The notes under the pieces: model-generated
Databases searched by the model: none
What the model saw: only the letters and a program-made list of their open reading frames with translations
Told to the model about the DNA's origin: nothing
Assembly (NCBI GenBank): GCA_028288625.1
Contig: JAQBNI010000132.1
Span: 1 to 47,283 of the forward strand
Source of the DNA: Bacteroidota bacterium
Lineage (GTDB): Bacteria > Bacteroidota > Bacteroidia > Chitinophagales > JADIYW01
Reading direction: 5' to 3'
Length of the DNA stretch: 47,283 bases
Program-made: the position numbers and the translations under genes
Part shown: piece after piece, positions 44,338 through 46,196 of the stretch
Position numbering within the stretch: position 1 is the stretch's first letter
Layout of the letters: each line of letters opens with the position of its first letter

Positions 44338-45477
44338 ATGGAAAACTTCCTTGTTTCAGCCCGTAAATACCGTCCATCCAAATTTTTGGATGTCGTTGGG
44401 CAGGAGCAGGTCTCCGAAACATTGAAAAAGGCTTTGTCCACGGGGAAACTCGCACAATCCTTTTTATTTTGCGGACCGCGTGGTGTAGGTAAAACCACGT
44501 GTGCGCGAATTCTTGCAAAAGCGATCAATTGCGAAAATCCCGGCGCAGATTTTGAACCTTGCAACGAATGCAATTCCTGTACTTCATTTAACCAAAATGC
44601 ATCTTTCAATATTTTTGAACTGGATGCAGCTTCCAATAACAGCGTAGACGATATACGCACATTGGTTGACCAGGTGCGATTTGCACCGCAGGCTGGAAAA
44701 TATAAAGTGTATATCATTGATGAGGTTCATATGTTGTCATCCGGTGCATTCAATGCATTTTTGAAAACACTGGAAGAGCCGCCGTCATATGCGATCTTTA
44801 TTTTAGCAACGACAGAAAAGCATAAGATTATTCCAACGATCTTATCGCGCTGCCAGATTTTCGATTTTAAAAGAATTTCCGATAAAGATATTGTAAAGCA
44901 GTTGCAGAAAATATGCAAGAGCGAAGGTGTATCTGCAGAGCCGTCCGCATTGCATGTCATTGCACAGAAAGCCGATGGTGGCTTGCGCGATGCACTATCA
45001 TTATTTGATAAGATCGTAAGCTATGCAGGAAAAAAAGTCACTTACCAGGATGTGATCCGCAATCTGAATATTCTCGATCACGACTACTATTTCCGCATCA
45101 CGGAATATTTTATGATCGAGGATTCTTCTTCCGTATTAACTGCATTCAACGAGATCATCAACAATGGTTTTGACGGAGAGATGTTTCTGTTGGGATTGGC
45201 AGAACATTTCAGGAATTTACTGATCAGCAAGGATGAACGAACTGTGCAATTACTGGAAGCTGCGGATGATATAAAGGATAAATATTTTGCGCAGGCTAAC
45301 CTGGTGAATGAAACTTTCTTATTGAATGCACTCACCATCATTAATCAGTGCGACGTAGAATATAAAACTTCAAAAAATAAGCGATTACATGTCGAGCTCG
45401 CATTGCTTAAGATCTGTTTCCTGAATACGCAAATTGAAAATACACTCTCGGTGTTATTAGGTGAAAAAAAAAACTGA
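44338..45477 (+). CDS. dnaX: DNA polymerase III subunit gamma/tau, zero-frame (short) product
   Basis: Clamp-loader ATPase that loads the DNA polymerase III sliding clamp. The zero frame gives 379 residues covering the whole clamp-loader core: Walker A CGPRGVGKTT (45-54), zinc-binding Cys65, Cys75, Cys78 and Cys81, IIDEVHML (Walker B), TILSRCQIF (SRC motif), and the collar domain with LHVELALLKICF. It ends in EKKN-stop right after a run of ten A (45464-45473). The C-terminal part of tau continues in the -1 frame (45471-46196). So this zero-frame product resembles gamma, and tau of about 619 residues needs a shift. If the run were A11 the frame would be continuous, so an assembly error must be excluded. 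Confidence 0.93.
   Translation: MENFLVSARKYRPSKFLDVVGQEQVSETLKKALSTGKLAQSFLFCGPRGVGKTTCARILAKAINCENPGADFEPCNECNSCTSFNQNASFNIFELDAASNNSVDDIRTLVDQVRFAPQAGKYKVYIIDEVHMLSSGAFNAFLKTLEEPPSYAIFILATTEKHKIIPTILSRCQIFDFKRISDKDIVKQLQKICKSEGVSAEPSALHVIAQKADGGLRDALSLFDKIVSYAGKKVTYQDVIRNLNILDHDYYFRITEYFMIEDSSSVLTAFNEIINNGFDGEMFLLGLAEHFRNLLISKDERTVQLLEAADDIKDKYFAQANLVNETFLLNALTIINQCDVEYKTSKNKRLHVELALLKICFLNTQIENTLSVLLGEKKN
45464..45473 (+). promoter_or_regulatory. A10 slippery run for dnaX frameshifting or slippage
   Basis: The zero frame reads GGT GAA AAA AAA AAC TGA. The adenines allow a -1 slip of two tRNAs, or RNA polymerase slippage adding one A, and the stop codon TGA is next. AGGTG just upstream (45459-45463) is Shine-Dalgarno-like but too close, and I see no strong downstream hairpin, which favours transcriptional slippage. 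Confidence 0.6.
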
Positions 45478-46196
45478 AAGCCTTACTGGATTGGTATAAA
45501 AAACGCAGGGCAAGTTTACTGTCTGAACAAAATTCAAACTCTGTAAATCCAAAACTCACTGTTTTAACATCACAGGAAATTAAAGTAGAATTTAAAGCTG
45601 AAAATTCAGTTACTGAAAATGTACAGCTAACGGAACAAACTATACTTCGCGAACAAACTATCGCGAAGGAAACAGTGAATAGCGAACAGTTAAATGAAAA
45701 TCTTGTGGAAGAAGCAAGAGTTTCTCCGGCTTCAAACAAGCCTAAAAAAGAATTGCCACGGCAATCTGCGTTAGGCGCTATGATGAAAGAAGTTCACAAG
45801 GAAAATGCTGCGAAAAAAACCGAAGATAAACTTGAATTGAACGAAGAAACAGTTTTGCCGCTCTGGAAAGAATTCCTTGTGGAGAATAAAGAAAGACTGC
45901 AGAATGCTTTTTTAAGTGTTGCGGAAAGACAATCACCAACATATACAGATGAAAAGATCACGTTCATCGAAACAAATAATATCTCGCTTGAATTATTGCA
46001 ATTGCACAAAATTGATATCGTAACTTATTTCATGAAGAGGACCACGGCACCATTTGTACGGTTAGATTTTAAATTGAACCGCGCTGCAACTTCAGGCAGG
46101 ACTTATAAAACACCAAGAGAAAGACTGAAAGATATGATCGAACGCAATCCGTCAGTATTGAAACTGATCGAAAAGTTTGACTTAAACAACGATTGA
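45471..46196 (+). CDS. dnaX: dnaX tau-like C-terminal extension (-1 frame)
   Basis: Open in the -1 frame from the A10 run to the stop at 46196, about 241 codons. The first about 70 residues are a Glu/Thr-rich linker; from about 45825 a folded domain follows with LPLWKEFLVENKERLQNAFL, FIETNNISLELLQL and FMKRTTAPFVRLDFKLN, the pattern of Bacteroidota DnaX C-termini. In E. coli the equivalent region of tau binds polymerase alpha and DnaB. No ATG starts this frame near the A run (GTG 45675 is the first plausible start), so it is best read as the tail of a shifted dnaX product, about 619 residues in all. Confidence 0.82.
   Translation, partial: KLKALLDWYKKRRASLLSEQNSNSVNPKLTVLTSQEIKVEFKAENSVTENVQLTEQTILREQTIAKETVNSEQLNENLVEEARVSPASNKPKKELPRQSALGAMMKEVHKENAAKKTEDKLELNEETVLPLWKEFLVENKERLQNAFLSVAERQSPTYTDEKITFIETNNISLELLQLHKIDIVTYFMKRTTAPFVRLDFKLNRAATSGRTYKTPRERLKDMIERNPSVLKLIEKFDLNND

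Follow-up and report, generated by a model that had tools for sequence, protein, structure and literature searches.

The window, by which we mean the whole 47,283-nt stretch of DNA that was analysed, carries a dnaX gene in which the frame leading to the long product is broken at a run of ten adenines (A10). The features of this locus are as follows:

44338..45477, + strand: zero-frame open reading frame of dnaX, encoding gamma (379 aa), with its ATG at 44338 and its TGA at 45475-45477
45460..45464, + strand: GGTGA, which precedes and enters the A10 run; its columns are invariant in 8/8 genomes of the genus
45464..45473, + strand: A10 run, the proposed slippage site, followed by a C and then by the zero-frame stop
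45474..46196, + strand: tau-specific tail in the -1 frame, 240 codons plus a stop, made up of a helix, a variable linker and a C-terminal folded domain

As the first-pass annotation had described, the zero frame ends at the A10 run. Its 3' end reads GGT GAA AAA AAA AAC TGA, and the sense strand holds exactly ten A at 45464-45473; programmed transcriptional slippage of the Thermus dnaX kind calls for at least nine. The 379-residue product contains the AAA+ ATPase, the lid and domain III, with Pfam matches to DNA_pol3_delta2 (E 2e-46), DNAX_ATPase_lid (E 3e-14) and DNA_pol3_gamma3 (E 6e-8), and the NCBIfam model TIGR02397 identifies it as DnaX at 448 bits (cut-off 250). The -1 frame is open from CTG at 45474-45476 to TGA at 46194-46196; the extension that had been put at about 241 codons therefore measures 240, and the long form comes to the predicted size of about 619 residues (379 + 240).

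The same annotation had seen a DnaX-like C-terminal domain in the extension, and profile comparisons bear this out. By itself, the tail aligns weakly with the C-terminal end of the DnaX model PRK14971, over profile positions 408-612 of 614 (E 4.4e-7; 29 bits, where the whole-protein cut-off is 685). When a profile of 11 of the -1 tails from the family was compared using hhalign with a profile of 17 zero-frame tau tails, chosen among 81 listed from other families of the order, the two matched at 99.4% (E 1.8e-21). The tail is also constrained as a protein in the -1 frame, with pN 0.38 versus pS 0.74 among the eight genomes of the genus, and this is clearest in its C-terminal part (pN 0.33 versus pS 0.78); dN/dS is undefined for most pairs owing to the saturation of synonymous sites. 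The remaining two frames of the tail region contain 13-35 stops each. In the predicted structure, a helix and a disordered linker lead to a C-terminal domain at about residues 120-240 of the tail, with pLDDT of 92-94 over about residues 121-200 (mean 69.0, pTM 0.42). In E. coli, the C-terminal domain of tau binds the polymerase. A fold search of the predicted tail against the PDB gave no match at E 0.001: the best matches were SirA/DnaA domain I chains (E 0.02-0.04) and DciA (0.3-0.7), and the C-terminal domain of E. coli tau (2aya) was a weak match at rank 13 (E 0.54). As E values were weak throughout, we set fold matching aside as a structural proof of the tau tail.

To place the break among its relatives, we searched 60 related genomes for dnaX and found the gene in 58. 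An alternative that had been raised from the start was a one-base homopolymer error, in which the true run would be A11 and the frame continuous. The assembly is a draft in 161 contigs, errors are frequent in homopolymers, and two relatives from the same family, G012 (genus g3) and G008 (genus g2), do have a continuous frame, although in both of them tau runs through the same A10 run. However, the A10-C-TRA break is identical in all eight genomes of the genus, with the stop (TGA or TAA) at the same position, and the -1 tail is present in each of them (219-240 codons, the other seven having 219-233). This identity persists despite saturation of the synonymous sites in gamma (mean pS 0.78). Furthermore, AAG makes up 22.5% of the lysine codons in gamma, yet it interrupts the run in 0/8 of these genomes. 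The A10 run itself occurs in 13/13 genomes examined from the family, and three more of them, G009, G011 and G010 (genera g3 and g4), show the break too, reaching a zero-frame stop in no more than 5 codons and continuing in a -1 tail. Because the same A10 and stop recur in 8/8 genomes in the face of synonymous saturation, we reject the error for this genus, where it would require that all eight share one systematic error, and give it next to no credence; as judged from these alignments, the break in dnaX is a real site.

The comparison also bears on whether gamma and the tail could be two separate proteins, the latter arising by internal initiation. The tail has in-frame starts at a GTG (codon 68) and an ATG (codon 103) after the run, and an ATG about 90-104 codons past the run is common to 7/8 genomes of the genus. 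This shared ATG nevertheless lies deep within the tail, the -1 frame is open from the run onward, and the motif LK.LL..YK just 3' of the run is conserved in the genus. No shared start nearer to the run was found in the eight genus sequences, and we discarded internal initiation as exceedingly improbable.

An A10 run is no proof of function by itself. This 3.7-Mb genome contains 17 such sites, and of the 16 others, eight lie within open reading frames of at least 80 aa (by our own reading), five of these in the same orientation as the A's. The proof lies in the conservation of the dnaX run. On other contigs of the genome, five loci (L233, L237, L244, L242 and L241) have A10 on the same strand within open reading frames of 149-383 aa, and these are possible further slippage sites.

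To view the gamma/tau boundary more widely, we read across it in 139 genomes belonging to the order, which were chosen rather than drawn at random, together with 74 further named loci. The sample consists of short-frame genomes among the matches listed plus others picked by hand; L021 (the same gene as L130), duplicate sequences, L135 and L231 were omitted, as was G016 from the tree. In the order search, the zero frame was open for fewer than 450 codons in 25 among the 150 matches listed of 294 (our own count), and two of these 25, G174 and G016, are cut by a contig end. In G016, the contig end within dnaX (L128, end of contig C94) reads like what we take to be a Nextera adapter. The boundary carries A9-A12 in 129/139 genomes and A8 or longer in 132/139; one of the seven genomes that lack an A8+ run is cut by a contig end. 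Among the named loci, 43/74 have an A8+ run. The rest of the dnaX frames of these order genomes, counting gamma up to residue 355 and the tail from 60 nt past the run, holds a single A9+ run in 225,154 nt.

The frame in which tau follows the run is far more changeable. Tau lies in the zero frame in 114 of the order genomes (108 with the run and six without), in the -1 frame in 20 and in the +1 frame in four, with one genome without a call, although these shares are not natural frequencies because the sample was hand-picked. On a gamma tree of 138 genomes, the tau frame changes at least 10 times; this is a quick tree, in which 40/135 inner branches are left open and long branches are flagged. 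Several of the flips (L124, L125, L127, L129, L032 and L123) rest on one draft genome each, and outside the genus such single-genome flips may reflect one-base errors. Other frame states are backed by several genomes, namely those of this genus, of f19 (three genomes) and of genus g53 in f8 (four genomes). In the class, a search of 395 genomes with a Bacteroidales gamma query gave 235 matches at E 1e-140. The zero frame was shorter than 450 codons in 27 among the 150 matches listed (our own count), including the present genome and G324, which is cut by a contig end; the remaining 25 short-frame loci all have A9-A11, and tau continues in the -1 frame at 23 of them and in the +1 frame at the other two. 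Thus, in the sequences compared, the run is conserved and the tau frame is not. Within a single genus, g219, the default product differs by one A: L260 has A9 and its tau lies in the -1 frame, while L248, L249, L252, L255 and L269 have A10 and encode tau in the zero frame.

We consider it likely that this dnaX yields two products, gamma and tau, through slippage of RNA polymerase on the templated A10 run. The polymerase would slip on the run and produce transcripts of several run lengths. Unslipped A10 transcripts would give the 379-aa gamma, and on transcripts with A11 (or A8) the ribosome would enter the tail frame and complete a tau of about 619 aa, while an A9 transcript would reach a stop after about 386 residues and yield a gamma-like product. 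Here, we infer the slip at transcription, its efficiency and the production of both proteins from the arrangement of the locus. Since slippage of this kind would spread run lengths, both products would arise whatever the frame of the template, and the default frame would be free to drift while the run is kept.

Stops close to the run are informative in this respect, as a ribosomal -1 shift needs only one closed frame, so that two frames kept closed would favour polymerase slippage. Both non-tau frames are closed within 6 codons in 138/175 loci with the run. The corresponding shares are 15.5% for 26,451 control positions within these tails and 14.7% for 491 positions that follow a shorter A run, although the loci are related by descent and a binomial value would therefore be no true probability. 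A competing reading is a ribosomal -1 shift at the heptamer A AAA AAC, which is A AAA AAG in sister genera; tau would then be reached by the mechanism of E. coli dnaX, with the roles of the products reversed. The heptamer is correctly phased at the zero-frame stop in 8/8 genomes of the genus, and where tau lies in the -1 frame, only 12/22 loci have the two remaining frames closed, a point against polymerase slippage. Nevertheless, the run of 9-12 A exceeds the six that the heptamer needs, and other genomes have a +1 tau frame at the same run (both other frames being closed in 4/5 of these loci). The species with tau in the zero frame also keep the +1 frame stop near, both frames being closed in 122/148 loci, and for -1 shifting this would be needless.

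Ribosomal signals around the run were also sought. The GGTGA at 45460-45464 resembles what we take to be part of an extended Shine-Dalgarno sequence, but it touches the A10 run and is not conserved in most other genera. It is nearer to the run than the Shine-Dalgarno stimulator is to the heptamer in E. coli dnaX, where the spacing is about 10 nt. A consensus prediction for RNA structure 3' of the run gave 0 pairs for the eight genus sequences, in line with the earlier remark that no strong downstream hairpin is visible. Downstream folds were no better than shuffles in seven of the eight; in L015, the fold does beat shuffles (z -2.1), which counts against the slippage reading. Rfam matches were sought in six loci, including L009, and none was found at E 0.1. 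Atkins 2016 (PMC5009743) describes tau as seemingly derived from ribosomal frameshifting in many fewer bacteria, with Chlorobium phaeobacteroides as a candidate that has potential stimulators. On balance, we regard ribosomal -1 frameshifting as unlikely in the present genus. Polymerase slippage, which the first-pass annotation had guessed, is better supported than hairpin-stimulated ribosomal shifting by these comparisons, given the lack of a consensus structure, the occurrence of both shift directions in orthologues and the near stops in both frames.

Ribosomes could also slide on the A run during translation, in either direction and on a homogeneous mRNA. Sliding of ribosomes on A stretches is the subject of PMC4363877, and it would likewise account for both the long A run and the two directions. 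On the other hand, the precedents for dnaX genes with long A runs, in Thermus and in the cluster of Antonov 2013, have been attributed to transcription, and we hold sliding to be quite improbable.

A dnaX gene that makes tau by recoding has already been published, and the present gene joins this known type. Antonov 2013 (PMC3711429) reports a reversed dnaX type comprising 17 genes from 12 genera, all of them -1, with poly-A at the junction in 12/17 genes (10 A in nine of them), and proposes transcriptional realignment. The members of that cluster share with this dnaX the two adjacent open reading frames, the -1 shift for tau and the poly-A at the junction; the species named there are Chlorobium and Chloroherpeton, and Bacteroidetes may be among the nine A10 genes. 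The same source treats opposite shift directions among orthologues as a mark of transcriptional realignment, and the +1 members found here among the orthologues of this dnaX bring it under that rule. Compared with that cluster, our analysis adds members whose tau is in the +1 frame, others of the same family in which the same run is followed by tau in the zero frame, and the spread over Bacteroidia. It goes further than what we found in print with respect to spread, the two shift directions and the repeated flips, which we take as evidence for a frame-neutral slippage module across Bacteroidia. A literature search that went mostly without subscription papers and preprints pointed to Antonov 2013 and the Atkins review as the pertinent sources and found nothing on dnaX of Chitinophaga or on dnaX frameshifting in Bacteroidales.

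Other recoded genes resemble this one in part. The dnaX of Thermus thermophilus (PMC1088944, PMC5009743) likewise combines RNA polymerase slippage with a run of A9 and with stops close by in the two remaining frames, but its zero frame encodes tau and slippage leads to gamma, while here the zero frame encodes gamma. E. coli dnaX (PMC5009743) also gives gamma and tau from one gene through a frame change at an A-rich site, with tau in the zero frame, the heptamer A AAA AAG, an upstream Shine-Dalgarno sequence and a downstream stem-loop, in contrast to the long run and the lack of a consensus hairpin seen here. The proposal made at the outset, that gamma is in the zero frame and tau is reached by a shift, the reverse of E. 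coli and Thermus, is thus supported by our comparisons. In Shigella mxiE (PMC1088944), the longer product also needs slippage, although this gene is unrelated and has a U run. The conservation that had been sought in related dnaX genes was found, as the run and the break are kept in the genus and the continuous-frame relatives also carry A10.

Outside the window, one Bacteroidales clade, which includes L117 (Lentimicrobiaceae bacterium isolate Emb289P3bin108), has a different junction. In this clade, the zero frame of dnaX ends after gamma, and the tail (180-299 codons) is in the +1 frame, with a junction that lacks an A run. The members are L298-L319, L321-L323, L339, L340 and L344 (dnaX of relatives of G682), three of which are also labelled L067, L094 and L117. 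Their junction carries a near-invariant 18-nt motif, GTCAGGCAATCRCGGGAG (or ...TCRTGAGG), and reads GTC AGG CAA TCR, followed mostly by CGG GAG or otherwise by TGA GG. At AGGCAA and at the C of TCR, 25/25 sequences compared agree, although the surrounding region is otherwise variable; AGG is rare in this clade, at 8% of Arg codons. The exact 15-mer AGGCAATCRCGGGAG occurs in 18/60 related genomes, once for each copy of dnaX, whereas the reversed 15-mer used as a control is found in 0/60. By our own count, the motif or a near variant is present in 28 sequences from 27/60 genomes, while A runs or an unbroken frame are seen in other relatives. The motif looks like a sequence-specific +1 recoding signal, and it is possibly a ribosomal frameshift signal that uses the rare codon AGG; it had no Rfam match, and our literature search found nothing on it. 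G682 has two dnaX copies that are 94% alike (L298 and L344), both with the +1 motif, and is probably a mixed metagenome bin.

We lean towards the view that in dnaX of Bacteroidia, the selected unit is a frame-neutral slippage run of A9-A12 on which the default product flips cheaply and repeatedly, and that the clade with the +1 motif, where AGG may stall the ribosome, represents an independent route to both products. Genes of this kind resemble a broken dnaX, with a short gamma and an orphan tail, despite their conserved site, and are therefore easily misannotated. The role of gamma was controversial even in E. coli (PMC5009743). That the means for both products would have been kept while the default flipped repeatedly is an argument for the importance of both. 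Where related genomes differ in their default frame but have a near-identical run, they would serve as natural experiments, in which the ratio of tau to gamma should track the statistics of slippage.
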